Positions 4,717 through 62,469 of a stretch of DNA of 64,000 nt are shown here, one piece after another. Source of the DNA: Bacteroidetes bacterium GWB2_32_14 (lineage in GTDB: Bacteria > Bacteroidota > Bacteroidia > Bacteroidales > UBA12077); NCBI GenBank assembly GCA_001768235.1, contig MENK01000008.1:186001-250000 (forward strand), given 5' to 3'. Numbering within the stretch: position 1 is the first letter of the stretch; every line of letters starts with the position of its first letter. A program made the translations under genes and the position numbers. Below the pieces are notes generated by a model that did not search any database, was not told the origin of the DNA, and saw only the letters and a program-made list of their open reading frames with translations.

Positions 4717-5265
4717 TTAACAATTGTTTTTTAAAAAATCAGTTACTATAATTTTAGCATTCTCAAATCTATTTTCACCAACTCCTTTAATTATTTCGTA
4801 TTTGAAAGTATATTTTTCGAGTTCCGATTTATACATTTGAAAAAGTTTTTCGCGCATTTCGCCCCCGTTTTCACGAACATTATCAGGTATCCAGGGAATT
4901 TCTGTATTGCATAATAAAAACAAATCAATTTTCAATGCCATTATATTATTTTCGAGCCATTCAGGAACTTTATTATAAACCACTTTAAACCAAATTTTAG
5001 TAATAATCAGGAATGTATCGTAAAATAACACATGATTAGCCCTTTTTAAGTATTTAGATTCCATCTCAATTTGTTTTCTGGCAATATGTTCAACATCGAT
5101 AAATGTATAATGCCTGTTCAGTTTTTCGATATATTCCCTGGCATACTCGGGAACGTATATGGTATTGAATTGCCTGGAAAGAAATTGTGCAAGTTCAGTT
5201 TTACCGGTTGATTCCGGCCCGATTATTACTATGCGTTTTATATTTTTTTCAAATCTTTCCGCCAT
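4717..5265 (-). CDS. nadR: NadR-type nicotinamide riboside kinase (AAA ATPase)
   Basis: This 182-residue P-loop kinase phosphorylates nicotinamide riboside to NMN in NAD salvage. Walker A GPESTGKTELA lies at about residues 16-26, followed by the family motif VPEYAREY and later DLFLLCNTEIPWIPDNVRENG. It corresponds to the C-terminal kinase domain of E. coli NadR only; the N-terminal repressor and adenylyltransferase domains are absent. The start overlaps the end of pnuC by 28 nt, so uptake and phosphorylation are translationally coupled, which supports the assignment over other small P-loop kinases. Confidence 0.85.
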   Translation of the reverse strand: MAERFEKNIKRIVIIGPESTGKTELAQFLSRQFNTIYVPEYAREYIEKLNRHYTFIDVEHIARKQIEMESKYLKRANHVLFYDTFLIITKIWFKVVYNKVPEWLENNIMALKIDLFLLCNTEIPWIPDNVRENGGEMREKLFQMYKSELEKYTFKYEIIKGVGENRFENAKIIVTDFLKNNC

Positions 5266-5834
5266 TCAAAATATCCGATTATTGCAAGAATTGTATATAC
5301 AGTAAACAATATAACCGTAGCGTATAACCCTTTATAAAAATACAAAGCTAATGATACAGTATCAACAACTACCCAAAGAATCCAATGTTCAATAATTTTA
5401 CGCGCAAGCATCCATGTCGCGACTAAACTTAAAGCTGTTGTAAATGCATCCCAATAAGGTAAAGGAGAATCAGTAAAATTAACCAATACATATGCAATTA
5501 TTACAAAGAAAACAGCATTAACAATAAAGAGTATTATTCCCAGTTTTAAATCAGTAACAGTAACTTCAAGGTTATCCGTTTTATTTTTTTTCCCTCCATA
5601 AAGCCAAAAGTACCATCCATAAATACTAACAAAAACATAATAAGCCTGCAACCCCATATCGGCATAAAACTTGGAAATAAAAAAAACATAGACATATAAT
5701 AGTGAAGTAATTAAACCAACCGGCCAGCACCATATATTTTGTTTTATTGAAAAGAAAATATATAAAATGCCAAAAATCGTTCCGAGTACTTCGACAAGAT
5801 GATTATTTATCCAGAGAATAATTTCGCTGAGCAT
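5238..5834 (-). CDS. pnuC: Nicotinamide riboside transporter PnuC
   Basis: 198-residue inner-membrane protein with about seven hydrophobic segments. PnuC hallmarks are visible: IKQNIWCWPVGLI near residue 30, YGWYFW near 72, and ILWVVVDTVSLALYFYKGL near 153-171, the conserved W-x3-D region of the binding path. It imports nicotinamide riboside by facilitated diffusion, trapped by phosphorylation through the overlapping downstream kinase. It sits 58 nt after the protease gene on the same strand. I saw no TPP or NAD riboswitch upstream, which argues against a thiamine-type PnuT. Confidence 0.9.
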   Translation of the reverse strand: MLSEIILWINNHLVEVLGTIFGILYIFFSIKQNIWCWPVGLITSLLYVYVFFISKFYADMGLQAYYVFVSIYGWYFWLYGGKKNKTDNLEVTVTDLKLGIILFIVNAVFFVIIAYVLVNFTDSPLPYWDAFTTALSLVATWMLARKIIEHWILWVVVDTVSLALYFYKGLYATVILFTVYTILAIIGYFEWRKDLKKI

Positions 5835-5892
5835 TCATTGAGTTTTTTGAATGCTGTAAAGTTATTTTAATAAATATTAAAACCTAAAAATG

Positions 5893-7494
5893 TTATTGGT
5901 TAATTAAAACTTCTGAATGATATTTCTCCCAGTTTTTAGCAACTTCAACAGCTTTATTAAATCCCTTATCACGAACATTCACAATCTGGTAATATTCGCT
6001 CATATCCCATAAATCTCTCGCGATAAGAGCTTTAATTATTAAAGAAAAATCATATTCAGATTTTTTGGCATCATCTCCTTTAGGTTCTATTTTGTTATTT
6101 GCCCCGTAAATTACAAGTTCTTCAATCATTTTAGGAGTTACAACAAACTTTTCGTTATATGTATTAAAGTCAGGATACTTTGATTTTAATGATTTTCTAT
6201 TTTTATCGATATAATCCAGAACAAAAGAATTAAGAACTCCCTGTCGAACCATCTTGCTATAAAATTCTGTAACAGAAGTAGTATCGAGAGGAACAAATAT
6301 ATCGGGCATAATACCTCCGCCACCATAAACGATTCGTTTATTTTGCAGGGTAAAATATTTTAAAGAGTCGTGAAAGTTAATGCTGTCTTTATTCATCATC
6401 TCTCCTTGCTGATAGCGGGTAAGCAATTCTTTTTCATAATTATCCATTCCTTTATCGTAAGGTTTCTGAATTACTCTTCCTGTAGGTGTATGATATCTTG
6501 CAATTGTTAATCGAATCATTGAACCATCGGGTAAATAAAATGGTTTCTGCACCAATCCCTTGCCAAAAGAACGACGGCCAATAATAATTCCTCTATCCCA
6601 GTCCTGAACAGCTCCGGCTACAATTTCACTTGCTGAAGCAGACCCTTCGTCAATAAGTATAATAACATTCCCATCCTGACATATACCATCGTTTGTAGCA
6701 AAGCTTTCTGTACGCGGAACACGCAATCCTTCAGTAAAAACAATAAGTTTATTGTCATCGAGGAAGTGATCGGCCAATTCAATGGCTTTATCCAGGTATC
6801 CTCCTCCATTATCACGAAGATCAAGAATCAATGATTTTGAACCTTGTGCTTTTAGTTTTTTTATCTTTTCAACAAACTCATCAACGGTAGTTAAAGCAAA
6901 ACGATTAATTTTTATATAAGCAATATCCTTATCTATTAAATAAGCAGCATCGACACTGAAAATTGGAATTTTATCACGGGTAATTGTAAACGATAATAAT
7001 TCTTTAACGCCCTTACGTTTAATCCATACAATAACTTTGGTTCCTTTTTCACCCAATAATCGATCGCGAACACCAGTATTTGAGATTCCTTTACCTGCTA
7101 CAATCTCCTCGTTAATTTTAACTATTCTGTCGCCGGCACGTAAGCCAACTTTTTCAGAAGGCCCTCCCGAGATTGGAGAAATTACATATATGGTATCGTT
7201 TAATAAATTAAATTGAATTCCTATTCCCTCGAAATTACCTTCAAGAGGTTCGTTCATTTCTTTTACTTCGTCTTCAGGAATGTAAACCGAATGAGGGTCA
7301 AGCTCTTTAAGCACATTAATAATTGCATTTTCAACAAGTTTAGGGCTATTGACAGTATCAACATAAAAATTTGATATATAACCCATTGCCCTGCTAAACT
7401 TGAAAATATCTTCGGTAAGATATTGAGAGAAACAATTAGCAGGAATTGTAAGTAATGCTATAATAAAAAGTATGAGGTGTTTTCTTTTTTGCAT
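5893..7494 (-). CDS. S41 family C-terminal processing peptidase
   Basis: 533 residues with an N-terminal signal peptide (hydrophobic core about 7-22), so it acts in the periplasm or at the envelope. A PDZ domain covers about 85-170 and recognises exposed C-termini. The S41 catalytic core follows: GSASASE (284-290), with the predicted nucleophile Ser287, and FGKGLVQ (310-316), with Lys312 25 residues later, the usual Ser-Lys spacing, plus Gln316. The 180-residue C-terminal extension is typical of Bacteroidota homologues. Substrates are unknown. It is followed on the same strand by pnuC and preceded by the second siaC. Confidence 0.9.
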   Translation of the reverse strand: MQKRKHLILFIIALLTIPANCFSQYLTEDIFKFSRAMGYISNFYVDTVNSPKLVENAIINVLKELDPHSVYIPEDEVKEMNEPLEGNFEGIGIQFNLLNDTIYVISPISGGPSEKVGLRAGDRIVKINEEIVAGKGISNTGVRDRLLGEKGTKVIVWIKRKGVKELLSFTITRDKIPIFSVDAAYLIDKDIAYIKINRFALTTVDEFVEKIKKLKAQGSKSLILDLRDNGGGYLDKAIELADHFLDDNKLIVFTEGLRVPRTESFATNDGICQDGNVIILIDEGSASASEIVAGAVQDWDRGIIIGRRSFGKGLVQKPFYLPDGSMIRLTIARYHTPTGRVIQKPYDKGMDNYEKELLTRYQQGEMMNKDSINFHDSLKYFTLQNKRIVYGGGGIMPDIFVPLDTTSVTEFYSKMVRQGVLNSFVLDYIDKNRKSLKSKYPDFNTYNEKFVVTPKMIEELVIYGANNKIEPKGDDAKKSEYDFSLIIKALIARDLWDMSEYYQIVNVRDKGFNKAVEVAKNWEKYHSEVLINQ

Positions 7495-7528
7495 AATTAG
7501 TGAATTTTGTTATCAAATAATAACTTAA

Positions 7529-7930
7529 TTATATACGGGCAATAAAATTAAAATCCATGCGAATAACATCTGAAAGATCTTCGCCATCTTCGAGTATCTG
7601 ATCGTCCAAATCCTCGTAATACCAATTGCAATTTATTATTGCTCCTTTTAATGAAAGTTTCTTAAAAAAATCAAGAATTTGAAGAATGTATTTTGATGAT
7701 GCTGAATTTATATATGTTAGATCAAAATTTAGATCGAATTTTAATTTATTTACTTCACTCTCGTTTTTAAGAAGATGACTTACATATTGATCGATTTTAA
7801 ATATTATTGATTCGTAAAACGCAACCACATCTTCAGGGCGTGAAATACCTGATAATTCAAATGTTTTATTTTTAACATCGAAAACAATTTTCGGAGTAAT
7901 TTCTGTTGGCTCAATGTAAAGGTTTTCCAT
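7529..7930 (-). CDS. SiaC family regulatory phosphoprotein, copy 2
   Basis: 133-residue paralogue of the SiaC protein at 3214-3594. It keeps the family pattern (TPKIVFD near the N-terminus and CNWYYEDLDDQILEDGED near the C-terminus), but the phosphosite motif reads YINSASSK (73-80), placing Ser76 where copy 1 has Thr68. It lies 11 nt downstream of the second siaB, so the two are probably translated together. The Thr-to-Ser change and sequence divergence suggest a separate, insulated kinase-substrate pair. Confidence 0.82.
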   Translation of the reverse strand: MENLYIEPTEITPKIVFDVKNKTFELSGISRPEDVVAFYESIIFKIDQYVSHLLKNESEVNKLKFDLNFDLTYINSASSKYILQILDFFKKLSLKGAIINCNWYYEDLDDQILEDGEDLSDVIRMDFNFIARI

Positions 7931-35331: not shown

Positions 35332-36675
35332 CTAATTATTCGAAGATTTACAATACATATTTATCATATCCTGTGCTTGTTGTACTCCAAGTTCCAAAGC
35401 TTTAGTAAAATCGGAACATCCGCCGGTATAATCGTTCAAATTAATTTTTGAAACCCCGCGGTTTAAATAGGCTCCTCCATTATTTTTAACTCGGGTTAAA
35501 TACGCATCATAGTCAGCAATTGCCTCGGCATGTTTTTTCAATATTCCTAAAGAAATGGCTCTTCCTAAATATGCATCGGCATATTCTTTATTATATTTTA
35601 AGGACAGATTAAAGTCTTTAATGGACTCCTCATATTTTTGCTGCATTGCTTTAGCAACACCACGAATGTAATAAACTTCGAAATAATCCTTTTTTAATTC
35701 AACAGCTTTATTAAATGGTACGATTGCACTTGCCGGTTCAGATTTATGCATATAAACCAATCCTTTTCTGTAAAATGGTTCTGCATCTGTTTTATCTAAA
35801 CTTATTGCTTTATCAAAGTCGGCGATTGCTTCATCAAAATTGAGTAATGCTGCTTTTGCATTTCCTCTTTTCTTAAACGATTTGACATCAACCGGGTTTA
35901 ATTCTATTGCTTTATTGAAATCGGATATAGCTCCATTGTAATCACGAATCTGAAGTTTAAAATACCCTCTCTGGTAATATGCATCCTGGTTATTTGCATC
36001 TAACTGGATAATTGCATCGTAATCGGAAATAGCACCCGTGTAATCGTCTTTTTCAATCCTGTATTTTACCCTGTAATTATAGGCTTCCAAGTTTTGGTCG
36101 TTTAGCTCAAGGGCTTTATTAAAATCGGTTACAGAAGTTTTAAAATCGCCCAGGTTTGCTTTAACAATACCTCTCTGATGATATGCATCGGAATACAATG
36201 AATCCAGCTTTATTGCCATATTTAAATCATCAAGGGCAGGTTGAAATTGTTTTAACCCTGACTTTACATAACCTGAAAAATAATGATATTCTGCTAAATC
36301 ATTTTTAAGTAAAATAGCTGCTTTTAAATCTTCAAGCGATTTTTCAAATTCTTTTTGTTTTATAAATAACAATGCCCTCCCAAACAATGCCTCATGGTTT
36401 TTAGCATTGATTTTAAGAATCCTGTTAAAATCTGAAAAAGATTTGTCCATATTATCGAGCTGATAATATGCCTGAGCACGCTTTAGTAAAGCATTTTCGT
36501 TTTTCTTTTTGTAAAAAATCGATTTGTCGAAATAAGATATAGATTGCTCATACATCAATGAATCGAAATAATTTAATCCTTTTTTATAATTATTTTCCGA
36601 TAAACGGGGTTTCGTAATAAAAAATGCAATTAGAACGATTGCAATTACCAAAATTAAGATGCTCCATTTTTTCAT
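35332..36675 (-). CDS. TPR repeat protein with N-terminal membrane anchor
   Basis: 447 residues: one hydrophobic helix (about 4-20) and then about 11-12 tetratricopeptide repeats to the end, each with the usual A-x-L/Y-x3-G pattern, for example AYHQRGIVKANLGDFKTSV and AYYQRGYFKLQIRDYNGAI. Such proteins act as protein-protein scaffolds; no enzymatic part is present. It is 24 nt upstream of the hydrolase-like gene and probably co-transcribed with it. The partner and pathway cannot be read from sequence. Confidence 0.88.
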   Translation of the reverse strand: MKKWSILILVIAIVLIAFFITKPRLSENNYKKGLNYFDSLMYEQSISYFDKSIFYKKKNENALLKRAQAYYQLDNMDKSFSDFNRILKINAKNHEALFGRALLFIKQKEFEKSLEDLKAAILLKNDLAEYHYFSGYVKSGLKQFQPALDDLNMAIKLDSLYSDAYHQRGIVKANLGDFKTSVTDFNKALELNDQNLEAYNYRVKYRIEKDDYTGAISDYDAIIQLDANNQDAYYQRGYFKLQIRDYNGAISDFNKAIELNPVDVKSFKKRGNAKAALLNFDEAIADFDKAISLDKTDAEPFYRKGLVYMHKSEPASAIVPFNKAVELKKDYFEVYYIRGVAKAMQQKYEESIKDFNLSLKYNKEYADAYLGRAISLGILKKHAEAIADYDAYLTRVKNNGGAYLNRGVSKINLNDYTGGCSDFTKALELGVQQAQDMINMYCKSSNN

Positions 36676-38554: not shown

Positions 38555-39568
38555 TTAACGAATTACGGTTACAGTTCCAACAATAGGAGTTTCACCATTA
38601 TGTAAATCAATCACGTAATAATATGAATCCATTGGTAATTTTCTACCATTGGAATCTGTTCCATCCCAGGGTTTTTGATACCCCTTGGATTTAAATACAT
38701 TGCTTCCTCCCCTGTCGTAAATATCAACCGTTACTTCGGGGAAAAGATTTAAATTTTCAATCACCCACTCTTCATTCACGCCATCATTATTCGGAGTAAA
38801 CGCGTTGGGTATAATAAATTCGCCACAGAAATTAACTGTGATCGTGTCTGAACCGATACAACCGTATTGGTCGGTAACCTGTAACCAGAAATCCCTTGAC
38901 TCGGTGCTGGCTTCAACATTCATATAAGAAGAAATAGATGTTCCTCCTTCATAGGTCCATAAATATTCAGAATACATGGTATCGAGCTGAAGCGTTAATA
39001 TTTCGCCCGGTTCGCAAATGGCAGTGTCGTTACCCAAATCGATTACCGGGTTTTGGTGAACAGTTAAAACAGCAGTATCGATAGCACGGCAACCGTAGCT
39101 GTCTTCAATACGTACCCAGTATTCACCTGTTGTTGATGCAATAAATGTTTCCCCGACAGAATTATCCTGCCATAAATAATTTACTGCTTCAGATGAGCTT
39201 GCAAAAAACTCGTACGTTTGATCCTGGCAGATATCTGCATCTAAACCAATATCTACCGAAGGATTTGAAATAATTACAGTAGTAAAATAAGGTTCACCGG
39301 TACAACCGTACAAATTTGTTTCGGTAACAGTAATAGTTTGTGGATCGGTTAAACCCCAGGGCCAACTCACCTCAATGGAATCGTTCCAATTAGTAACAAT
39401 AGTACCCCCGGTAACTACCCAGTTAAAAACAGAATTGCCGTTATCGCCATAAACGCCATAACGAACAATACTACCGGGGCATGCCACGGGAACATCTTGG
39501 GCATAAGCATTTAAACCCTTCAAGAGCAGGAAAAACAAACCAATAAATATGTATAATTTCCTTTTCAC
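38555..39568 (-). CDS. Secreted protein with gliding-motility C-terminal domain (CHU_C, type B T9SS signal)
   Basis: 337 residues with a signal peptide (1-23). Three Ig/PKD-like beta modules follow, each with a cysteine pair and Y/F-x-W core (VFNWVVTGGTIV, NYLWQDNSVGETF, EYLWTYEGG). The C-terminal 85 residues are a classic CHU_C domain: IPNAFTPNNDGVNEEW, VDIYDRGGSNVF, WDGTDSNGRKLPMDSYYYVIDL and a final GTVTVIR. It is exported by type IX secretion and may anchor at the PorP/SprF barrel encoded 40 nt downstream. A strong terminator separates it from the upstream 328-residue protein gene. Confidence 0.92.
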   Translation of the reverse strand: MKRKLYIFIGLFFLLLKGLNAYAQDVPVACPGSIVRYGVYGDNGNSVFNWVVTGGTIVTNWNDSIEVSWPWGLTDPQTITVTETNLYGCTGEPYFTTVIISNPSVDIGLDADICQDQTYEFFASSSEAVNYLWQDNSVGETFIASTTGEYWVRIEDSYGCRAIDTAVLTVHQNPVIDLGNDTAICEPGEILTLQLDTMYSEYLWTYEGGTSISSYMNVEASTESRDFWLQVTDQYGCIGSDTITVNFCGEFIIPNAFTPNNDGVNEEWVIENLNLFPEVTVDIYDRGGSNVFKSKGYQKPWDGTDSNGRKLPMDSYYYVIDLHNGETPIVGTVTVIR

Positions 39569-39682: not shown

Positions 39683-40669
39683 CTAGTATGCCCAAGTATT
39701 GCTGATATGATAAATTGGACCAGTTGTAGGTGCAGGCAATACAATATAAGCTATTGATGTAGTAGCACCAAAAGGATATCCTGTAACTGCAACACCATAA
39801 TCAGATTTGTTAGATATTCCAGATACAATACCTCCTACTGGGCCATCAGAAGCTGGAGAAATAGTATAAGTATATCTTGTTGGTTTATCATTCACAACAA
39901 CTAATGCTGGAGTTGGAATAGTATAAGTTGAAGTAGCAGTACCAATATCGTTAGGAGTCCAAGTATGAGTTGGGTTAGCTGTTAATAAAGCATGTCCGGT
40001 TTTAAGTTTAGAAGCAACTGTATAATCCCAATCAGTATCAGAAATTGCAGCTCCATCAGGTGTAGTTAAATCAGCAGCCAACACATTTTCAACAGTTTGA
40101 TTAATTAACAAAGCATACGATCTATAAGCAACAGGTAAATTAGCATCTTCAGTAATTGTTATAGTAACAGTTTCAGAACCTGTTGTAGCTGGTAAACAAG
40201 CTGTATAAGGGCTAGCTCCAGACCATGAATAGTTAACATTAGTAGCAGAACCAGCAATTATAGCAGTTGGTTCGTCAATTACTTCTACAGTTAAAGAAAC
40301 TGCCGTACCTGCACATGTATTAAATGTTTCTTCTGCCTCAATAGTCCAAGTACCTGCCTCATCAAATGATAACTCTACATAGTTATTATTTAAATTTGTT
40401 TCTGTTGCTGTACCAGTAGTTGGAGCAGTATAAGTCCAAGCAAATGTAGTATTAACATTTGCTGTTAAACTTACAGCTGCATCAAAAAGAGGAGATAAAT
40501 TTGCATCAGGAACAACAAAGTATGGTAAATTTTGATTTATAGTTACATAATCTGTTGTAGCTGAACTTACAAAGTCAGCATTATCAGTAGCCAACTGTGC
40601 AAAAGCACCAGTCAATACAAACGCCATTACAAGCGTTAAAGCGAATTTTAAAAAGTTTGTTTTTTTCAT
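39683..40669 (-). CDS. Secreted Thr/Ala-rich beta protein with C-terminal TGPxYHISNxW motif
   Basis: 328 residues with a clear signal peptide ending at AFA (about 1-24). The mature part is rich in Thr, Ala, Val and Asn with few charged residues, and looks like two or three Ig-like beta domains (TFAWTYTAP, YVELSFDEAGTWTIEAE, SLTVEVIDEPTA, then ATNVNYSWSGAS), with one probable disulphide pair. The last residues, TTGPIYHISNTWAY, share the motif TGPxYHISNxW with the end of the 2563-residue protein next door. It lacks a CHU_C or type A sorting domain. It has a textbook promoter, a leader of about 165 nt and its own terminator, so it is probably an abundant surface protein. Function unknown. Confidence 0.8.
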   Translation of the reverse strand: MKKTNFLKFALTLVMAFVLTGAFAQLATDNADFVSSATTDYVTINQNLPYFVVPDANLSPLFDAAVSLTANVNTTFAWTYTAPTTGTATETNLNNNYVELSFDEAGTWTIEAEETFNTCAGTAVSLTVEVIDEPTAIIAGSATNVNYSWSGASPYTACLPATTGSETVTITITEDANLPVAYRSYALLINQTVENVLAADLTTPDGAAISDTDWDYTVASKLKTGHALLTANPTHTWTPNDIGTATSTYTIPTPALVVVNDKPTRYTYTISPASDGPVGGIVSGISNKSDYGVAVTGYPFGATTSIAYIVLPAPTTGPIYHISNTWAY

Positions 40670-40840
40670 GTTTTTTGTTGTTTAAGTTAATATTTAAATT
40701 CATTAATTGTTTTTTAGCTTTTAGCTTTGATTTTTATATGTTGAGTTTATCTTTCGTTTTATTAAGCATCTATTTACCATCTAATAATTTAACTTATTCT
40801 CTTTTTCATATTTTAACGCTTAATTCGGTATTTGGTTGCG

Positions 40841-40870
40841 CAAAATTAGTAAGCATTTGATTAAAAACAA
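40841..40870 (-). promoter_or_regulatory. Promoter of the 328-residue secreted protein gene
   Basis: On the minus strand TTG (40870-40868), exactly 19 nt, then TAATTTTG (40848-40841): a consensus Bacteroidota promoter, giving a 5' leader of about 165 nt. Confidence 0.72.
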
Positions 40871-41131
40871 GTATTAACTTATAAAAGTATCATTTTAAAT
40901 GATTAATACAATAATACACCTGCCAAACAAGTTCTTTTTTTTGACCAAAATTTTGTTTTTTTATTAACTTGTATATTCTCCTTCGCAGGCGTTGGTTGTT
41001 AATAATGTTGATATTAGAAACAGCATTGAGTTTTTCCGCCCCCTTAGAATCTCTTCAGATAGCTACAATTTTAAATGCTGCCTGCAGGCAGGCTCCCAAT
41101 CCAAAGAACGTTATATCATTCACATCATTCC

Positions 41132-41163
41132 CTTAAAAAGGCTTGCAAACAAGCCTTTTTAAG
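41132..41163 (-). terminator. Terminator of the giant surface protein gene
   Basis: A perfect 14-bp stem (CTTAAAAAGGCTTG with its complement) closes a 4-nt CAAA loop, 26 nt past the stop codon. The T-run is part of the 3' arm. Confidence 0.85.
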
Positions 41164-41188
41164 AGTATAAAACGAATATGCAACCAGT

Positions 41189-44100
41189 TTACGGCCAATC
41201 GTTTGAAATATGGTATTGAGGGCCGGTATCAGGTGTACGGGTCACAATTACATTTACCGTACCTGTATCTGAACAACCAGCACTACTCGTTACAGTTACA
41301 GTAAAAGTTGTTGTAATTTGTACCGGGGTTGTCGGGTTAGTTGCCGGAGTATAAACAGGGTTTTCTAATGTTTCATCGTCTAATTCGGCAATAGGATCCC
41401 ATAAATAAGTTGCACCTGTTCCCCCGAAATTAGCATCCAGTTGCGAATTATCGCCATAGCAAATAGTTGAAGGTACAGCACTTGGTGTGAATACCGGCAA
41501 CGGGTCAACAGTAACAGCTACCGGGTCGGAAGCAATACTATAGCATCCAAAAGCATTTGCAACCTGAACAGAATAGTTTCCTGCTGTTGTAACATTAATA
41601 TTTTGTGTTGTGGCACCATTAGACCATAAATAGGTTGATCCGATGCTTGAACTTAAAATAACACTTTCGCCTTCACACAAAACCTGATCGGTATCGGGGC
41701 TGATTGTAGGTTGAGCAGGTACAGGGTTAACGCTTACAGTTGAACCATCAGCATTTCCGATATTGGAGCCATTGTTATATTCAAACCCGGTTAATTTATA
41801 TGATCCGGATGTTGGTGCAGGCAAGCTATAAGGTAAGTCTGCTGATGTTATAGTCACTAACGAGGAAACCCCTAAATCAACAGAATAGTACAACGTATAA
41901 TTCAGCTCGGCAGAAGTTACTCCTGAAAAAGAAACAGGGATGGATTCTCCGGCACATACATCATCAATTGTTGTAAAGTAAGCTTTAGCCAAAATAGGCG
42001 ATGTAGAACCTAATGTGTAATATGCCGGGGTAACATCAATTGTATTTGTAGTAGCTACTGTACCATTGTAATCATCGCCAACCGGAGCATCAGAATCTAT
42101 ATCAACCCAATCAGTACCATCAAATTCAGCCACTATAATATCATCAATTCCATTTGTAGTTGTCAGGGGAGTAATATCGCTTCCTGAATCCCAACGCAAT
42201 TCAACTTGCGCCTTATCAGTTGCATTAGGATTATCAATTGCCCAGTATTCTGTTTGGCTCACTTCGGTAAGAGTAGTACCTGTAATGGTATAATCTCCAA
42301 AGCCTGTATTAAAGTATTCTGCAATCCAGGTTCCGTTATCTACTCCTAAAAGTTGTAACTTACCATATCTTGAACCATCTCCAATAGGGAAGTTAAAATT
42401 ATTTCCTCCATAAATATATATTGACACAGGGCCATCGATATATGCATCAGCAGAACCTCCATCAGGTATAACCTGTGATGAAGCCCCGGGATTAAGTATC
42501 TTTAAAATGTTTGTAGATGTAGTAGTAATAATACCATCGGTTAATGACAAATCTTCATTAATTTCTAACGGGCTGTTTAAAGTTAAACCACTGCTATTAT
42601 TCAATTCGAAATTATTAAACTTATTGGTGCCTGTAAACTGTCCATTAACGCCACCCAGTGTTTGCGCTGCACTTCCGGCAAAGACTACGGTTGCATTAGC
42701 ACCTGTTCCACTTAAAAAAGCACCTGAATTTATTCTTTGAAATACTCCGTTAACTGTAAGTTTCCTGTTATTTACACTATTATCTAAAGTTGCCCCGCTA
42801 ATTTTTAAAGTATCACAAATAACCAGATCTTTATCAGGGAGGATTCGTTTATTTGTACCTGTAAAGTATAAATTTCTAAGAGTATCTATACGATCTGCAA
42901 TAATTGTATATTCGGTACTTCCATTAAATTCCAATGTCCCCCCGGAGCAATTTAAAAAAGATGTAAATCGGCCTGCAGGTAATACAGGTCCCTCGAGCCT
43001 TAATTTCCCTGTACCATAAACTGTTCCCAGGTTATGTCCATAAGTACTTCTGACATCTAAAATCCCATTAATTGTTGTTCTATAGGCAAACCGACGGTTT
43101 CCATTGGTATAAACAGAATCTCCCGGGCTTACAATTACAATAAACCCGTTTGGGCCACCTGCAGGAGCAGGATCTCCATCGCCTGGATCACCAACTTTTT
43201 CCCAAATACCAGGGGTATCCCAGTTACCATTCATTATACTCTGGTAAACCGGAACTGTTGCAGGAATAGCGGAATCGTTTCCTGCTGTATATTCTCCCGA
43301 TATGTTATTCACTCCATTGTAGTTAAATTTTATAGTATCGTTAGTTTCATCAACATTATCAGTGCTCTCTCCGGGAGATGCTTTGCTCCATGTAGTTCCG
43401 TCAGGAATAATTAACTGTGCTGCCACGTAACTGGCTTCAGCACCAGCTACATCAGTATCGGCATATTTAAATTTCAAATCTCCATAAAAAGCAGAAATGC
43501 CTGTGCTTGCAACTTCCCAGTAATATTGTAATACCTGGGTGTCGTCTAATACAGTAGGATGGTTATCGTTAATACAATTGATTCTTATAGACCCTGCATT
43601 CGTATTTGCTGTAATATTTAAATCGGCAGGAGTATATTTCCCGCTAACTCCCAGCGGGTAAGTAAATACATGATCCCCTGCAGTAAAATTCTTTATAATC
43701 CCGACATTACTAAACACTCCATCAGGTTCAATCATCTTCAATGAACTGAACCCGGTACCGGTTGTATCAATAATATCTGAATTCTCTTTCAAAGTCAATA
43801 GCCTTTGGTTGATATTCAATACCCCTCTTGACAAAAGTAAATCCTGCTCCAATGTAATATCATTTAAAATACGTGCTCCAAAAGCGTTGTACAAGTTCAA
43901 CCGGCCAAACGTTCCTGATCCTGAAATTTCCTGTTCGGCAGATGTTCCGTTTAATATGATCCCTCCCCGGGAAGCATCGCCAGAATGGATACCGCTATTT
44001 GCAACATCGCCAGCCACATATATATTTAATGTATCGCTTAGCAAGGAACCGGAAACAATTGAAAAATCATTTGCAATGGTGACATCATAATTAAAAGTTA

Positions 44101-47100
44101 ATGATGTAGAAGGATTACTAACCAGGTTATAAAAATCGGTAACTGTTGAGCCTAAAATGGTTTGTGTTGTACCATTAAATGTTGTTGTGTTCGTTCCCGG
44201 AATATAAGTCCCGTTATTTGTAAGATTACCTTTTAGAGTTACATCGTTACTATTCGCATCAAAAATGCTATTTGCTGTATTGATAGTTAAATTCCCGTTC
44301 ATAACCAATGGATTCACCATCAGCTGAAAAGTGTTATCCGTTCCAACACCATCTAAAATAAGTGTATTTAAAGGAACTTCGGAATCTAATTTTATTGTTT
44401 GTACACCAACATTAACAGAACCTAAAGTAATCGTTCCTCCTGTAGCAGAACCCGATTCAGGGCGCAGGTACAAATCGCCATAAGTACTACCCCCACCTCT
44501 TAAAATAGTAAAACTGCCACCCGACATATAAAACTCGCTACCCGGGTTTACTGTTTCAAATTTTGCACGTGTTGCAGTACCTCCCCGTCCATAAATTATT
44601 GTAGATGCTGTACCCGACTGATTAAATTTTAACACCCCATTTGTTTGCGTTGTAGATCTTCTTATTTGAGAGTTTACTGTTAAACCGGATGTTTCGGTTA
44701 ATTCAATTTTTGCATTGCCCGAACCAGAATACTCGATATAACGGGTATCGGAAGTAGTTCCATCTCCAATGTTAATTACCGAGTTATCCTCGGCACGGAG
44801 TAATCCATCCAGAAAAATACCGGTACCTGTTCCCGTAACAGAAACGGATGCCCCATTTTTTAGAATAAGTGCCGCAGTTTGCGGAATACTAAAGTTCGCT
44901 CCGCCACTACTTAATGTAATATTATGTGAACTATTGCCAAAAACCAATGTTCCTTTAGTAAGTGCCAAAGCTTTAGGGCTGCTGTTTGTAATCCCATCAA
45001 GAGTAAGTGGGTGATATATAAAAACTGTATCGGAAAGATTGTCTTTATTTATTACCATTCTGTCGAATGTAATTGTATTAGCTCCTCCTGTCCGATCAGT
45101 CACCACCACATTTGCAGAATCCAAAAAATTAAGTGTAGCATAATCGATCGCGATAGATGATTGCCCCGTGATGATACTATCGCCGTAAAAATTTACATTA
45201 TGTAAACCTGTTCCACCATTGTCATCAATAATATTTGTATTATCCGTGTTGTTATATCTCAGGTTAATATCTCCATAAATATTCAATATCTGTGCATTAT
45301 TTCCATTAAAACGCAATCTGCCCGTATTATTAATCTTAATATCATTATAAACAGTTAATGTTCGAGATGCATTCGGATACAATAAAGTGTTATTTGTATA
45401 TGCCGGAACCGAAATAATTAAATCCTTTCGAACTAAAACATTTGAATTGGGTAACGTTTTTGTTATATTATTTGCATTTGATGTAATTAACAAAGTAGGG
45501 TATGATGTGATGGTTGTTCCAATAGTATATGATCCCCCATGATAATTAAATACAGCAGAGTCATTACCTGTAAAATCACCATAATCTGTAGTTGGAATTG
45601 TTGCAGATGTTGTAACAAACTTGCCTGCACCTTTTAATAAATCAAGTGTTATAGACCCTCCAAAATTTTGAATATTTAATGTAGGCCTTCTTTCATCACC
45701 AGTAAAAGATCCTAAGATTGTTATTGTTGCTGCATTAAAACCTGCAGTTACTGTAATAGAATCATTTCTGCCAGCTATACCTCCAATGTATATAATATCA
45801 CTGGCACTATTTGGGTGACAATTACAATCGGCTCCATCATGAGCAGTTGAAGACCAAACATCATTTGAACTAAATGCACCACTAGCAATAGAATAAAAAA
45901 CGTCAACATTATTAAAAGCACCACTATTACCCGCTGTAATATCAGCAGAAATAAATCCCTGTGAGTTTGCAATACCATTTATTATTACATTTGGTCTGGA
46001 TGCTGAACCTCCACTATTCCAACTAGTCGTCCCGCTTATAAGGGTATATGCTGTATTAACACCCGATTCCCAATCCCCTACAATATTATTGTAACACTGG
46101 AAATAAACATTTGATCCTGATGGTAAGCCTGTAGAATTACTTCTCCAGTAATAATAAAGATGCCTTCCTGAAGTATTTTGAGCAGGATGTATATTATTTA
46201 CAGGTGTAAATGTAACATATCCATTTCCTGTTCCCGGTGAAGTATTTCCCATGATTGTACAAGGAGTATATTTTCCCGTAACACCAATCGGATACACAAG
46301 ATTGTTTCCTGTTGTAAGAGATGAAGCATTCACTCCCATTCTTAAACCTCCGTCAGAACCAACTCCATTTGTTCTAAAATATCTTGTTGTTGTATATCCT
46401 GAAACCACCCCTGATTCAATTGTTAAACGATACTGTCCAAGATACATCATTCCGCTGGTAAAAGTGAAGCTTTCAATAGACCCATCATTTACTAAGTTAG
46501 CACCATTAGCATTGTTTAAAGTAACATTACCTAACCCGGGTTCACCAAAAACTTCATAGGTAATATATTGCGCGGAACCACCATTTAATACTATTTCTCC
46601 TGTTCCAGTATGCTTACCGGCACAATATATATGCCCGGCAACGTTCAATGTTTTTCCGCCGTCGTTGAGAGTTCCTCCCAATATTTGTAATGAATCGCGA
46701 ATGGTAAATGTTGTAAGTGTACTAACAAAAATAATTGTATCAGCCGATTTATCAATTTTCAATTTATTAAAGCCTGAAGTTATTGTACCATTTCCTGTAA
46801 AGGTCTGGTAACCTGCTCCATTAAAGGTTGTCCAGTTTGTTCCCGGAGTATATGTACTTCCTAAAGGTAAACTAAAGTCGCCACCAACCTGTACCTGGTA
46901 ATTATTAGAAACCAACGTGGCACTATTCGACAATGTTAAATCATTGGAAACAGTTAAAGGAGGATTTGTTCTGGCAGTAACACCCGTTTTTGATGGAATG
47001 TTTGTAAGCTGAACTGAAGAAGTTCCTGTTACTCTTTCTATATTCAAATTATAAACAGGTGCAGCTGAAGCTACATAATAATTATAATCTGTACCAGTAC

Positions 47101-48880
47101 CATCTGTCAGTTTAATAGTAACATTCCCTCCCGTTACATTGTAATATGCAGGTAATGAATTCACTTCATATACTCTTGAGATTGAACTTGCATCTGCTCC
47201 ACACACATCAAGTATTTCAATTGTACCACCCGACATATCAAAAATATTATCGTCTCTGTCGATATTGAAAGTACCAACCGCAGCTTGAATACCTCCTGTA
47301 TTTTGAGTTGTACTTAATGGTACGGTTGTTAAACTTGCAATGGTTGAAACACCAGTAACATTTCTTATAAATCGTCCGCGAAGGGTAAATGTACCTCCTG
47401 TTTGCCTGTATGCAGTAAGCCCTCCTGAGGTATTTGCAGTTCTAAATTGTTTTGTATCCAGGGCACCTCCATTAATAATAAATTCACCCGACGAGCTTGC
47501 CCAATAAATAAAACCTCCCGATTCACGGGTTGATATATACCCGTCATTAATCTGAAATTTACCCAGGATTGAGAAAGAACTACATCCCGCACTTGCATTT
47601 ATACCAAGAACTCCATCACTGGCAGCCGAAGTACCGTAAGCCGCATTTACTTCCCTGTAATTATCTGCAGTGGTTAAAACAATAACATCCGGCCCATCAA
47701 TAACAAGTGCTGCATTTGCAGGTATATAGAAATCGGTATTGGGGCTACTGTCGGTGTCTCCACAAGAACCTTCCGACAAAGATGGGATAACAACTTTTCC
47801 AAACAAGAGCAATGTACCATTCCGAATCCACAAAGCCTTTTTTAAATCGGGATTATCTCCGCCGTTTTCGCCACCGGCTATATTTGCACCAAACAACCTG
47901 AAATTATAATAGTCAGATGAGTTTACAGCCAATTGATAAGTTTGATCAGTGCCTTTATCAACAACCAAATTATAAAAATCAGTAGTATCATTACAAGTTA
48001 AAATATTATCGGTTGTACCAAGAAAGTAAACAGTGGCAGCACCATTTGTTGGAAATGAATTATAAACAGGGTAATCCTGGTTTGTAAAACGTACTGTTCC
48101 GTTATTTGAAAAATCGCCATATATTACAACCCGATGTGTGTTTTGATCATAGTAATTCAGGAAAGGAGCTGTACCACCATCAACAGCCACAGTATTAGCA
48201 ACAGGATTAGTTGTTGTTGCTGTATTTCCTGTACCAACTTTTAAAGATGAGCCACTATCAACAGTAACATTTCCGCCCACAGATAATTGCCGCCGTGCGG
48301 GTGTTCCATTATTTATTTGATATTTCCCTTTTTTAATATACAAATTACCATTTAAAGTAATATCAGATAACTGAGTTGCTACAATAGCAGTGGAACTCAA
48401 ATTTAATGTCAGATTATTATATTCTGTTTGTAATACTGGTAAAGTAAAATTCGACGAGTTATTATATTCTGTTGTACCTCCACCCGCATCTACAAAAGTA
48501 TTCGTAGTCGCTGACGGGAAATTTGTTCCTGAAAGTTTTATTGTTCCTTCACCTCTCAATGCAGATAAACCAGCGGTAAATGAGTTTGCGCCCAAATTTA
48601 AAATACCACCACTTCTTATTGTAATATCGAGGTTTGTTGTAGCAGTATCGGCAGTTAATGTTACTGTTCGTGACATGAGAATAACTACTACATCTCCATT
48701 GGTTGGTATTCTTGATCCAACTAAGGTTGTTCCGCCCGGGTCTGTAGTCCAGGTATCCAGGTTATTCCAGTTACCAGACATGTATGAATAAAGCGTTTGA
48801 CTCTTTAAGCCTGCTATTGTCATGCTTATTACTATAAAAAACAATATCACGCTTTTTAAGAAGTATGAACTTACTTTCAT
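41189..48880 (-). CDS. Giant surface protein (2563 residues) with repeated beta modules and C-terminal TGPxYHISNxW motif
   Basis: Signal peptide at 1-28. The body is a long chain of Thr/Asn/Gly-rich beta repeats of the type seen in beta-helix adhesins (for example LTLSNSATLVSNNYQVQVGG, TFNGTTQTILGS). Three module starts share a S-x-G-x-W pattern: YSYMSGNWNNLDTWT (about 33), YSIASGAFSSNDVWS (about 993) and YQSIMNGNWDTPGIWE (about 1875). Two PKD/Ig-like modules lie at about 2390-2540 (YLWSNGATTQNINVT; ATYLWDP). The tail is DTGPQYHISNDWP, shared with the 328-residue protein; no CHU_C or type A domain is present. It is probably a type IX exported adhesin or sheath protein. It has its own promoter and terminator. 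Confidence 0.85.
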   Translation of the reverse strand: MKVSSYFLKSVILFFIVISMTIAGLKSQTLYSYMSGNWNNLDTWTTDPGGTTLVGSRIPTNGDVVVILMSRTVTLTADTATTNLDITIRSGGILNLGANSFTAGLSALRGEGTIKLSGTNFPSATTNTFVDAGGGTTEYNNSSNFTLPVLQTEYNNLTLNLSSTAIVATQLSDITLNGNLYIKKGKYQINNGTPARRQLSVGGNVTVDSGSSLKVGTGNTATTTNPVANTVAVDGGTAPFLNYYDQNTHRVVIYGDFSNNGTVRFTNQDYPVYNSFPTNGAATVYFLGTTDNILTCNDTTDFYNLVVDKGTDQTYQLAVNSSDYYNFRLFGANIAGGENGGDNPDLKKALWIRNGTLLLFGKVVIPSLSEGSCGDTDSSPNTDFYIPANAALVIDGPDVIVLTTADNYREVNAAYGTSAASDGVLGINASAGCSSFSILGKFQINDGYISTRESGGFIYWASSSGEFIINGGALDTKQFRTANTSGGLTAYRQTGGTFTLRGRFIRNVTGVSTIASLTTVPLSTTQNTGGIQAAVGTFNIDRDDNIFDMSGGTIEILDVCGADASSISRVYEVNSLPAYYNVTGGNVTIKLTDGTGTDYNYYVASAAPVYNLNIERVTGTSSVQLTNIPSKTGVTARTNPPLTVSNDLTLSNSATLVSNNYQVQVGGDFSLPLGSTYTPGTNWTTFNGAGYQTFTGNGTITSGFNKLKIDKSADTIIFVSTLTTFTIRDSLQILGGTLNDGGKTLNVAGHIYCAGKHTGTGEIVLNGGSAQYITYEVFGEPGLGNVTLNNANGANLVNDGSIESFTFTSGMMYLGQYRLTIESGVVSGYTTTRYFRTNGVGSDGGLRMGVNASSLTTGNNLVYPIGVTGKYTPCTIMGNTSPGTGNGYVTFTPVNNIHPAQNTSGRHLYYYWRSNSTGLPSGSNVYFQCYNNIVGDWESGVNTAYTLISGTTSWNSGGSASRPNVIINGIANSQGFISADITAGNSGAFNNVDVFYSIASGAFSSNDVWSSTAHDGADCNCHPNSASDIIYIGGIAGRNDSITVTAGFNAATITILGSFTGDERRPTLNIQNFGGSITLDLLKGAGKFVTTSATIPTTDYGDFTGNDSAVFNYHGGSYTIGTTITSYPTLLITSNANNITKTLPNSNVLVRKDLIISVPAYTNNTLLYPNASRTLTVYNDIKINNTGRLRFNGNNAQILNIYGDINLRYNNTDNTNIIDDNGGTGLHNVNFYGDSIITGQSSIAIDYATLNFLDSANVVVTDRTGGANTITFDRMVINKDNLSDTVFIYHPLTLDGITNSSPKALALTKGTLVFGNSSHNITLSSGGANFSIPQTAALILKNGASVSVTGTGTGIFLDGLLRAEDNSVINIGDGTTSDTRYIEYSGSGNAKIELTETSGLTVNSQIRRSTTQTNGVLKFNQSGTASTIIYGRGGTATRAKFETVNPGSEFYMSGGSFTILRGGGSTYGDLYLRPESGSATGGTITLGSVNVGVQTIKLDSEVPLNTLILDGVGTDNTFQLMVNPLVMNGNLTINTANSIFDANSNDVTLKGNLTNNGTYIPGTNTTTFNGTTQTILGSTVTDFYNLVSNPSTSLTFNYDVTIANDFSIVSGSLLSDTLNIYVAGDVANSGIHSGDASRGGIILNGTSAEQEISGSGTFGRLNLYNAFGARILNDITLEQDLLLSRGVLNINQRLLTLKENSDIIDTTGTGFSSLKMIEPDGVFSNVGIIKNFTAGDHVFTYPLGVSGKYTPADLNITANTNAGSIRINCINDNHPTVLDDTQVLQYYWEVASTGISAFYGDLKFKYADTDVAGAEASYVAAQLIIPDGTTWSKASPGESTDNVDETNDTIKFNYNGVNNISGEYTAGNDSAIPATVPVYQSIMNGNWDTPGIWEKVGDPGDGDPAPAGGPNGFIVIVSPGDSVYTNGNRRFAYRTTINGILDVRSTYGHNLGTVYGTGKLRLEGPVLPAGRFTSFLNCSGGTLEFNGSTEYTIIADRIDTLRNLYFTGTNKRILPDKDLVICDTLKISGATLDNSVNNRKLTVNGVFQRINSGAFLSGTGANATVVFAGSAAQTLGGVNGQFTGTNKFNNFELNNSSGLTLNSPLEINEDLSLTDGIITTTSTNILKILNPGASSQVIPDGGSADAYIDGPVSIYIYGGNNFNFPIGDGSRYGKLQLLGVDNGTWIAEYFNTGFGDYTITGTTLTEVSQTEYWAIDNPNATDKAQVELRWDSGSDITPLTTTNGIDDIIVAEFDGTDWVDIDSDAPVGDDYNGTVATTNTIDVTPAYYTLGSTSPILAKAYFTTIDDVCAGESIPVSFSGVTSAELNYTLYYSVDLGVSSLVTITSADLPYSLPAPTSGSYKLTGFEYNNGSNIGNADGSTVSVNPVPAQPTISPDTDQVLCEGESVILSSSIGSTYLWSNGATTQNINVTTAGNYSVQVANAFGCYSIASDPVAVTVDPLPVFTPSAVPSTICYGDNSQLDANFGGTGATYLWDPIAELDDETLENPVYTPATNPTTPVQITTTFTVTVTSSAGCSDTGTVNVIVTRTPDTGPQYHISNDWP

Positions 48881-49237: not shown

Positions 49238-49246
<9 letters not shown>
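49208..49246 (-). pseudogene. tRNA-Val 3' fragment
   Basis: Positions 49208-49237 equal the T-arm and acceptor 3' strand of the intact tRNA-Val at 49555-49629. The anticodon side is replaced by an arm of a palindrome and the 5' half is missing, so no functional tRNA can form. Confidence 0.8.
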
Positions 49247-49629
<383 letters not shown>

Positions 49630-59924: not shown

Positions 59925-61421
59925 TTAATATCCTTTACCCTTTGGACTGCTAATTTCGGTCATAGCACAACGGAAACCAATATCATCACGAGCTTCTTCC
60001 TGATCCAGGAATCTGCGTGTTGCGGGGTTTAACCAATACACCCTGTCTCTCCATGAGCCACCTTTATAAACTCTAACTTTATCAGTAATCATTGAAGCCC
60101 AGTCACCTTCTTCTTTTGAATACATTTCGTTTGTAGAAGTTGCACCTTTTGTAGCTTCATCCTGATTTTCAAAATCAACTCTTGAAGTTATATCTCCGTC
60201 AAGATAGTTTCTGTAATCTGCTTTTTGGTAATTATATCTGGTTGCAGCTTCTTCTTCGGTAACTTCTCTTTTCTTTAGTCTTCCTAAGCTATCTTTAGCC
60301 ATAATGCTTCCATCTTCGTTTGTAAGAAGAGTTTCAAAAACATTACCTCGGAATGGCCTAAAATCGCTAACATCTTCGTGAGACAATGGCCTATAAACAT
60401 CTTGAACCCACTCGTTCACATTACCAGCCATACAATATAAACCGTAATCGTTAGGCCAGTATGATGTTACAGGAACAGTAATAGAACCGTTATCGTTAAG
60501 ATCACCTGCAGTACCCATCATATCACCACGGCCACGTTTAAAGTTGGCCATCATAATACCTCTGTCTTTGCCATTCGGATTACGAACATTATGTCCGTCC
60601 CATGGATATAATCTGCGTTCATAAATTCTTTCATCGTAAGTATTTCCTACAAGGGCAACTGCAGCAAATTCCCATTCTGCTTCAGTTGGGAGCCTGTATT
60701 TTGGTAAAAGATAACCATCTTCTAATTTTACACGTCTGCTTTCAACATTAGGATCGAGTGAAGGAACATTTTCTTTTACTAAACCTTCATACTGGCCAGC
60801 TAAATAAGCTTCTGTGTTAAAATTTTCCCTCCCTACCTGGTTTGGATCTAAATCTAAAACACCTTCTTCGATTAATCTCATTTCATTTACTCTATCTGTT
60901 CTCCAGATACAATAATCGTTTGCCTGCAACCAATCTACTCCAACTACAGGATACTGATTGTAAGCAGGGTGACGGAAATAATACTCAACATAAGGCTCGT
61001 TATAAGCTAATGGACTTCTCCAAACAAGTGTATCAGGCAATGCATTTCTGTACACAGCAGGATAATCGACAAATACTCTGCTTATCCAATATAAATACTC
61101 TCTGTAATCCACATTACGTACTTCTGTTTGATCAAGATAAAATGATGAAACGGTAATTCTTCTTGGTACTGAATTCCAATCGTACATTACATCCTGTTCA
61201 GTACGTCCCATGGTATAACTACCACCTTCAATCATAACTAAACCAGGTCCTGGCTGATCATAATATTCATTTTTTACTTCAAAACCTCCGTTATCCGGAT
61301 CATTATATGCCCAACCAGTTGTTGATGAATTATTGGTATCAACCTTAGGACCTCCACCGCAACCGTAAACTGTAAGTAAACCTGCGAGAATTAAAGAGAA
61401 AATGTTATGCTTTACATTCAT
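59925..61421 (-). CDS. gldJ: GldJ/PorK-type gliding/T9SS lipoprotein (formylglycine-generating-enzyme fold)
   Basis: 498 residues with a lipoprotein signal (Cys21 after LLTVYG). The body is an FGE-sulfatase/SUMF1-like domain: GGSYTMGRTEQD near 67-78, FYLDQTEVRNVDYREYL near 94-110, YRLPTEAEWEFAA near 238-250, MAGNVNEWVQD near 327-337 and a final GGSWRDRVYWL and RRFLDQEEARDDIGFRCA. These proteins form the periplasmic ring and track parts of type IX secretion and gliding. GldJ is favoured over GldK/PorK because no porL-M-N genes follow and porU is close by in divergent orientation, as in Flavobacterium. The symbol is inferred mainly from context. Confidence 0.82.
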   Translation of the reverse strand: MNVKHNIFSLILAGLLTVYGCGGGPKVDTNNSSTTGWAYNDPDNGGFEVKNEYYDQPGPGLVMIEGGSYTMGRTEQDVMYDWNSVPRRITVSSFYLDQTEVRNVDYREYLYWISRVFVDYPAVYRNALPDTLVWRSPLAYNEPYVEYYFRHPAYNQYPVVGVDWLQANDYCIWRTDRVNEMRLIEEGVLDLDPNQVGRENFNTEAYLAGQYEGLVKENVPSLDPNVESRRVKLEDGYLLPKYRLPTEAEWEFAAVALVGNTYDERIYERRLYPWDGHNVRNPNGKDRGIMMANFKRGRGDMMGTAGDLNDNGSITVPVTSYWPNDYGLYCMAGNVNEWVQDVYRPLSHEDVSDFRPFRGNVFETLLTNEDGSIMAKDSLGRLKKREVTEEEAATRYNYQKADYRNYLDGDITSRVDFENQDEATKGATSTNEMYSKEEGDWASMITDKVRVYKGGSWRDRVYWLNPATRRFLDQEEARDDIGFRCAMTEISSPKGKGY

Positions 61422-61491: not shown

Positions 61492-62469
61492 CTAAATTTT
61501 GGGACATTTTATTGCCTTGATTTTTTTTCTTTTGCTTTTATACTTGAATTTATATAAAAAGGTTACTTCATGTGATCCGGAAATTAACCCGGCCAGTTCG
61601 CTTATATAAAAAGGGATATCGTAACTGTATGCAACAGTAGAATAGTCACCAACAACACCAAGCATTAAAACGGCACCTGTTAATTTAAATTGTGTATTTG
61701 TTTTTATCCATACTCCTGTTGATAATAAATTTTTATTTAGATACAATCCTAAATTAAATTTTGATGAACCTCCCTGTACTTGTACCAGGATATTGGGAGA
61801 TAATGTCCAGTCAATTCTTCCCATGCTGTTGTAATATGGTATTTCCATTCCTCCATGAACTGTATATTTTCTGTTAATAATTCCCGGATCGTCACTTCCC
61901 AGAGACAATACTGGTTTAGTAATATGATCTATGGAAAAACCAAAATAATAATTTTCATACCACGTGAGTAATCCCGCAGAAAAATCAAAATATTTGATTT
62001 GTTTATCTATTACCGTTCCTGAATTTGGATTTATTGTCCAACTGTTTTCATCAATCATTTCAGGTAAAAGAAGGTTATTTGTATTAATAGATTTAATACT
62101 ATATCCCGCCTTTATTCCAAAGTTTACAGACCATAACTTTCGTATTTTGAAATGATAGGCATATATTAAACTAATATTTAAATCATTAATAGCTCCCTGT
62201 GCCTGCCTGTCGTTCATAATTTGAAACCCCAGGCCCCCGCTTAATCCATCAAAATACTGGTCATAAGAAGCACTATATGTAGTATAATCACCATAAGAGC
62301 TTGGCAATAATGTTCTGTAATTTAATGAAAATCTCGACATATTATCTGAACCTGCAAAAGCGGGATTTAAATAAAGCATATTCGCGTAATATTGAGAAAA
62401 CTCAACGTCCTGTGGAAAAATATTCTGAAAACTAGATATAAATATGAAAAGTATAATTATCTTTTTCAT
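61492..62469 (-). CDS. PorP/SprF family type IX secretion membrane protein, copy 2
   Basis: 325 residues with a signal peptide (1-19). The mature start DVEFSQYYANMLYLNPAFAGSDN is the family signature, followed by about a dozen amphipathic strands expected for an outer-membrane barrel. The C-terminus ends in a lysine-rich tail (KSKRKKIKAIKCPKI), unusual for a barrel protein. It is 70 nt upstream of the GldJ-like gene and divergent from porU, which makes it a candidate core PorP rather than an adhesin-specific SprF. Confidence 0.9.
   Translation of the reverse strand: MKKIIILFIFISSFQNIFPQDVEFSQYYANMLYLNPAFAGSDNMSRFSLNYRTLLPSSYGDYTTYSASYDQYFDGLSGGLGFQIMNDRQAQGAINDLNISLIYAYHFKIRKLWSVNFGIKAGYSIKSINTNNLLLPEMIDENSWTINPNSGTVIDKQIKYFDFSAGLLTWYENYYFGFSIDHITKPVLSLGSDDPGIINRKYTVHGGMEIPYYNSMGRIDWTLSPNILVQVQGGSSKFNLGLYLNKNLLSTGVWIKTNTQFKLTGAVLMLGVVGDYSTVAYSYDIPFYISELAGLISGSHEVTFLYKFKYKSKRKKIKAIKCPKI

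Follow-up and report, generated by a model that had tools for sequence, protein, structure and literature searches.

Two neighbouring genes in the 64,000-nucleotide stretch of Bacteroidetes bacterium GWB2_32_14 analysed here (contig MENK01000008.1, positions 186,001 to 250,000; hereafter the window) encode a giant protein of 2563 residues and a small protein of 328 residues that end in the same short motif, GPxYHIxNxW. Judged from sequence, this tail is a genuine C-terminal tag that is conserved whatever protein carries it and is tied to a hub anchored by a PorP protein. It probably serves as a docking tag, fastening secreted proteins to a hub formed by the small protein, a short CHU_C protein and a PorP/SprF barrel.

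The tail, its position and its carriers

The giant (41189-48880, minus strand), a proposed client of the hub, has the C-terminus DTGPQYHISNDWP and the tail TGPQYHISNDWP at 41192..41227 (minus strand), supported by the end of the open reading frame (ORF), a DNA pattern match and the relatives. The small protein (39683-40669, minus strand), a proposed hub subunit, has the C-terminus TTGPIYHISNTWAY and the tail TGPIYHISNTWAY at 39686..39724 (minus strand), supported by the ORF end, the DNA pattern and the tail profile. Both ORFs and tails are as the preliminary description of this DNA had claimed, and a search of the 3.66-Mb genome with a DNA pattern derived from GPxYHIxNxW returned only these two perfect sites. 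With up to three mismatches, 8 sites were found versus 12 for a reversed-pattern control; since the relaxed sites do not exceed the control, only perfect matches count. The same description had assigned signal peptides to both proteins, in agreement with our judgement by eye, and had reported no type A or CHU_C domain in either, which is borne out by the absence of a match to these models in Pfam and NCBIfam. The small protein has no match of any kind in the two libraries, and the giant shows weak Ig_7/PKD matches near its C-terminus, under the Pfam cut-off.

Beyond this genome, the tail pattern occurs in 9 of 147 relatives (own genome included); these 9 are members of a single genus, and their matched tails stand at the ends of ORFs. 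A profile built from 17 tails and run on 393 genomes of the order gave 72 matches in 36 genomes at E ≤1e-3, distributed over ten families (f1, f25, f38, f39, f43, f44, f65, f81, f83 and f94) plus one doubtful genome (G199), whose match, counted among the 36, is a 21-codon frame and probably due to chance. At a looser E ≤0.1, 110 of the 393 genomes matched, and because many of the weak matches listed sit in columns 1-16, corresponding to the strand before the tail, the count is limited to E ≤1e-3. Moreover, a scan of about 85,000 species with TGPxYHI[PS]N yielded 45 stretches, several of them contigs from one genome, mostly with Bacteroidales or Bacteroidota titles. Among the carriers is the isolate Perlabentimonas gracilis (Bacteroidales), termed gliding in a title cited by PMC11122141. 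Two tail contigs titled Acidobacteriota and Woesearchaeota (L086 and L107) are probably mis-binned.

The position of the tail is terminal. Of 46 matches to the scanned pattern, 43 stop 1-5 residues further on, 41 of these in frames longer than 60 codons, and in 33 of the 41 exactly 4 residues separate the motif from the stop. Three of the 46 are probably chance matches (L067, L095 and L077, the last being a frame of 36 codons that ends at the motif), and two others lie in short frames of 17 and 20 codons (L076 and the second site of L082). On the other hand, when 395 genomes sampled from the class and 267 sampled from the phylum were searched with a broader profile of 43 tails, only the own genome matched (the phylum draw re-used class genomes), and some genomes of the same order inside these draws were also tail-negative.

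The consensus of the tail is P-x-T-G-P-x-Y-H-I-x-N, followed by about 1-5 residues. In alignment A6, P and G never vary and T hardly does, with Y, H and N about as conserved, and across the ten families the tail is more conserved than the stretch preceding it. In the open-access PMC literature, the tail strings were found only via YHISN, in four papers that by title deal with unrelated subjects; also, among open-access PMC titles on T9SS (type IX secretion system) signals, donor strand, Perlabentimonas, grappling hook and surface filaments/PKD, none concerns this tail, which is no proof of absence.

The near-invariant P-x-T-G core recalls LPXTG sortase signals, in which L-P-x-T-G is followed by a membrane helix and a basic tail, and the giant of one genus member (L011) even reads KLPETGPQYHI. 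The core could then be a sortase-like site of cleavage and linkage, the remainder of the tail being removed on linkage to the surface, and a PorU sortase-like step is described for the T9SS (PMC10202324 and PMC4560394, by title). However, this is very unlikely: the proteins end 8-13 residues after the TG, which leaves no room for a membrane helix (no search aimed at sortases was made), the residues Y, H and N past the would-be cut are about as conserved as the core, the co-variation between proteins extends to residues past the cut, and second small proteins of some lineages carry TSP, TQP or TKK in place of TGP.

The carriers of the tail are unlike one another. With the tail removed, profiles built from as many as 32 small proteins and 37 giants were compared, and the C-terminal domains preceding the tail in the two kinds gave an hhalign probability of 0.7%, whereas the giant C-domain and the CHU_C Ig region are similar (95%). 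Besides giants and small proteins, a Gly-rich repeat protein (P0007, repeats recognised by eye) bears the tail; it ends KTGPLYHIPNTFAP and has no Pfam match. The alternative in which the tail is part of a longer shared domain is not supported by the 0.7% value or by the tailed repeat protein, and the earlier proposal that the motif stands apart from any such domain holds. In contig L093, the tailed Gly-rich repeat protein (4724-6127, GGxxxGYxxxCxxQ by eye) adjoins a gene resembling FGE-type secreted proteins (6148-7671, by eye).

Hub synteny and co-variation of giant and small tails

Next to the small gene, the window encodes a short CHU_C (type B) protein of 337 residues with a GTG start (P0003, 38555-39568, minus strand), the proposed base, and a PorP/SprF barrel without cysteine that ends RRYRWLNRF (P0004, 37531-38514, minus strand), both identified by Pfam/NCBIfam matches; the preliminary description had placed the tail proteins beside such a pair. 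The CHU_C protein comprises an N-terminal PKD-like domain (about 39263-39502), an Ig-like region and the CHU_C domain (38576-38815). This arrangement recurs: among the 29 small-like ORFs that have 1,400 bases or more of downstream sequence, 26 are followed on the same strand by a CHU_C protein (two via the N-domain only), and at 19 of these 26 loci a PorP match is also present, the rest having little sequence left (not checked singly). These figures count synteny and are no independent search, because the CHU_C and PorP profiles were built from these same loci. The small-like ORFs lacking a downstream CHU_C protein are those of L047 and L055 and the repeat protein of L093. Complete trios of small, CHU_C and PorP genes are found in several families, for example in the single-contig genome G333, where about 160 kb separate the small gene from the closest giant. 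The clustering with CHU_C and PorP/SprF genes proposed earlier is usually seen for the small genes, but the giants can lie elsewhere.

A tally of the 36 tail-positive genomes, in which the small class was defined as a protein of 250-365 residues, found a giant and a small protein both over threshold in 16. Exactly one small protein is present in 15 of these 16, with 1-4 giants, that is, few hubs for several clients, and in 9 of the 16 more than 20 kb or a contig boundary separates the giants from the small gene. Four genomes with a small protein and no giant over threshold (G020, G088, G172 and G192) proved later to have giants whose tails have diverged, and a longer member of the small family is present in G117 and G343, two of the three genomes with a giant only. 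The small-family profile matched 53 of the 393 order genomes at E ≤1e-4; near full-length matches extend into the tail columns, and the weaker ones are partial. R[YF]RW is found near the C-terminus in 28 of 31 distinct hub-type PorP/SprF proteins. By eye, the hub-type proteins also have a basic loop (KSRSIKKRIKKRRP-like), a possible sub-family marker.

The tails of giant and small proteins co-vary within lineages, the two tending to depart from the consensus in the same way. The motif is YYI and YYV in the tails of G404, FHI in giant and small alike in G173 and G402, and TG[QNT]YHV in both kinds of protein of G020, and in family f94 both end in AK. The giant of G297, fetched after the small proteins of its family had shown TGE, also has TGE, although another small protein of this genome has TGA. 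Tails were scored by their identities, with half a point taken off for each residue by which their lengths differ, and the residue before Y was excluded. For 18 hand-grouped lineages (DQHR, DSBV, JAKQEF, JACABB and second small proteins left out), the score was 7.29 within versus 5.93 between lineages, a difference reached by 0 of 100,000 permutations; addition of those four lineages gave 7.56 versus 6.30 for 22 lineages (0 of 100,000). The result was also 0 of 100,000 for 17 lineages with sub-lineages dropped, 0 when identities alone were scored, and 2.5e-5 with one lineage per family (nine families). Recent gene conversion between the tails is not supported as a source of this likeness, since only 31 of 72 shared-residue codons are identical in ten giant-small pairs, which makes recent copying unlikely. 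Moreover, I or V occupies the position just ahead of Y in each of 36 small tails, and Q does so in 23 of 45 tails from giants and other clients, so the two remain distinct kinds. A common partner of giant and small tails is well supported.

That partner could also be an export machine. The tail might be a new, fourth type of T9SS sorting signal, read by the translocon or by the PorP/SprF carrier of the hub and itself directing export. Signal peptides are seen by eye in the carriers, those scanned gave no match to a C-terminal domain (CTD) of their own, a PorP/SprF carrier is part of the hub, and the co-variation fits a single reader. Also, SprA is present in all 36 tail-positive genomes (by eye), as would be expected for a tail limited to genomes with type IX secretion, although this is hardly a test because SprA is found in 370 of the 393 order genomes. 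The same figure stands against a general signal, the tail being restricted to 36 of these genomes and to the own genome in the class and phylum draws. In addition, the own genome holds 12 CHU_C and 10 PorP/SprF matches, yet two tails, and described CTDs are folded, 7-stranded domains (PMC10994853), not tails of 12 residues. Direct export signalling is therefore unlikely, and docking to a dedicated hub is favoured over a role in directing export. The carriers themselves would presumably leave the cell through the T9SS. The earlier suggestion of a sorting, anchoring or polymerisation signal is supported, but not as one general to Bacteroidota or to the T9SS.

A possible donor-strand mechanism

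If the tail docks to the hub, the giants and other clients would be donors through their tails, and the small protein would be both donor, through its tail, and acceptor, through its N-terminal PKD-like domain (residues 26-135, 40265..40594, minus strand). The likeliest contact would be strand donation into the PKD-like N-terminal domain of the partner, because the tail takes the place expected for strand A of a subsequent Ig/PKD domain. The candidate acceptor resembles the N-domain of the CHU_C protein (hhalign 85%, the best of five comparisons, the four other domains giving ≤3%), and its profile has no match in ORFs longer than 480 residues at E ≤0.01. The CHU_C protein would form the base of the hub, since it has a related N-domain, no tail and a position on PorP.

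Codon usage is informative on the small protein. Its gene has the strongest ribosomal-like bias of the window, with a codon adaptation index (CAI) of 0.79 relative to ribosomal-region genes and a z of 6.6, the top of 41 window ORFs of at least 150 residues. The 22 ribosomal-region genes reach a z of at most 4.1 and a CAI of at most 0.776, many of them being shorter and hence lower in z. Small genes of four genus relatives have z values of 3.0-6.2, the giant has 2.0 and PorP -1.3, and the GTG-start CHU_C gene, scored in part, gives a CAI of 0.605. This suggests that the small protein is made in large amount, and it may then form a shaft or linker.

Internal domains of the giants offer a further comparison. 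A P-x-P segment precedes internal PKD-like domains in five giants (L037, L063, L094, L100 and L102), and in L100 it is followed by ISGPTSV at the place where the tail would lie. This points to the position of the tail, but is suggestive only, and a survey of domain junctions gave a mixed result. Since the tail itself comes after a typical end strand with P-x-P, the same observations would suit functionless relics, inherited remnants of a lost further Ig/PKD domain of which just the linker and first strand survive. Such relics are hard to reconcile with a tail that is conserved over ten families more strongly than the preceding stretch, is borne by unrelated proteins, co-varies between them and keeps a near-fixed distance to the stop, and this origin is the most improbable of those considered.

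A second class of tail, with Y replaced by Q, K, E or N, occurs in lineages with tandem small genes: TSPIQHI (L058, L143 and L146), TQPIKHI (L052), TGIIEHI (L046), TKKLQHV (L144), TKKLKHV (L145) and TGTINHV (L055). Its bearer adjoins a CHU_C-type gene in L046, L143, L144, L145, L146 and L097, and such a neighbour was not seen in L055 and L058. It is possible, and proposed here tentatively, that these elements make up a T9SS-associated surface fibre of some Bacteroidales, whose assembly in trans would rely on a portable donor-strand tag at the C-terminus. In this fibre, giant and repeat clients lacking a sorting domain of their own would join an abundant tailed shaft subunit, and this a short type B base on the PorP/SprF barrel, the TSPIQHI-type tail marking the base-adjacent subunit in some lineages.

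Several points weigh against docking to the hub and the roles assigned in it. PKD/Ig relationships are common in these proteins: the N-domain of the CHU_C proteins is similar to the Ig region of the same proteins (70%) and to the giant C-domain (40%) as well. Moreover, the CHU_C N-domain profile matches one giant internally (L094), and at looser settings both N-domain profiles match internal PKD-like domains in a few giants, so the giants are not free of such domains. The co-variation permutations ignore kinship and genome-wide composition, and the same co-variation would be expected if the T9SS or PorP read both tails. Codon bias can speak at most for expression and does not demonstrate polymerisation. 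With regard to the genome tally, 8 of the 9 genomes with unlinked giants are drafts in which the genes lie on separate contigs, a within-contig distance being available only in G333. Also, a small protein occurs without a giant at threshold in 16 of the 36 genomes, a giant without a protein of 250-365 residues in 3, and neither kind in one.

Comparison with known systems and the gene neighbourhood

Type A, B and C signals are described for the T9SS (PMC10202324), together with its translocon and carriers (PMC10994853 and PMC12635249), and no sorting-signal model in Pfam or NCBIfam matches the tail, in line with its earlier placement outside existing models. The type A CTD (TIGR04183 / PF18962 according to PMC10202324) has no match in either tail protein or in 28 members of alignment A4. 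The type B CTD (TIGR04131 / PF13585) is absent from the giant and the small protein, the neighbouring P0003 alone matching it at the locus; five A4 members have a CHU_C match, and in A4 there are five rows that read through into a CHU_C gene. For the ChiA-type signal (type C, cl41395 in PMC10202324) there is no Pfam/NCBIfam match, although whether these libraries include that model is unverified.

The closest parallel is type B anchoring, as in PG1035-PorP of P. gingivalis and SprB-SprF of F. johnsoniae, where type B proteins are anchored by PorP-like proteins (PMC9143113). A CHU_C gene adjoining a PorP/SprF gene, the mark of a PorP/SprF-anchored type B protein, is found in P0003 and P0004 and in their relatives. 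However, the giants described here lack CHU_C and would be held by the tail and a separate short CHU_C protein. In addition, the CxC tail of SprF bonds to GldK (PMC12635249), whereas neither CxC nor any cysteine is present in the last 40 residues of the 31 distinct hub-type PorP proteins. An SprB/SprF-type gliding adhesin is thus disfavoured, though a GldJ-like gene (under the model cut-off) lies in the window.

The proposed joining of subunits by a terminal strand resembles donor-strand fimbriae, including Mfa1/FimA of Bacteroidales, where Mfa1 polymerisation needs the terminal regions of Mfa1 (PMC5954841), and the position of the tail would be compatible with such an assembly. In contrast to those fimbriae, no fimbrillin or pilin model in Pfam/NCBIfam matches the tail proteins or the A4 members, and the small family has an invariant Q25, 30 of 38 members fitting a simple signal-peptidase-I-plus-Q pattern. 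Aureispira GhpA (PDB code: 9flp), similar to residues 2357-2552 of the giant, is the only PDB sequence matching the giant at E ≤0.01 and the sole strong match of the CHU_C protein. In GhpA, CHU_C lies near the end of a single chain of 5898 residues, whereas here it is on a separate short protein. The small family has no PDB match at E ≤1.

The tailed proteins would represent a surface-protein class missed by the models searched, comprising giants of about 3000 residues and a small family without a clear Pfam/NCBIfam match, and the tail offers a sequence rule for finding client proteins in a genome. How proteins without a T9SS CTD reach and stay on the surface then becomes a testable question, and a tail working as a plug would give Bacteroidales a short, portable surface-display tag.

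Finally, the gene order giant, small, CHU_C, PorP/SprF, TPR and beta-lactamase-like is kept in several genus members, judged from lengths and ends. The TPR protein downstream of the hub (35332..36675, minus strand) is a candidate neighbour with putative membership in the system, a look-alike occupying the same place in several genus members. A promoter-like match 5' of the small gene (TTG-N19-TAATTTTG, 40841..40870, minus strand), based on the Bacteroidota promoter consensus, is weak, with 4 matches in the window versus 2.45 expected. Upstream of the giant lies a lone ORF of 90 residues resembling GIY-YIG nucleases (49245-49517, minus strand). About 20 kb from the hub, a GldJ-type lipoprotein just below the model cut-off (59925-61421, minus strand; 449.6 versus 458.2 bits) ranks second in the window by strength of codon bias and adjoins a second PorP/SprF gene (61492-62469, minus strand).

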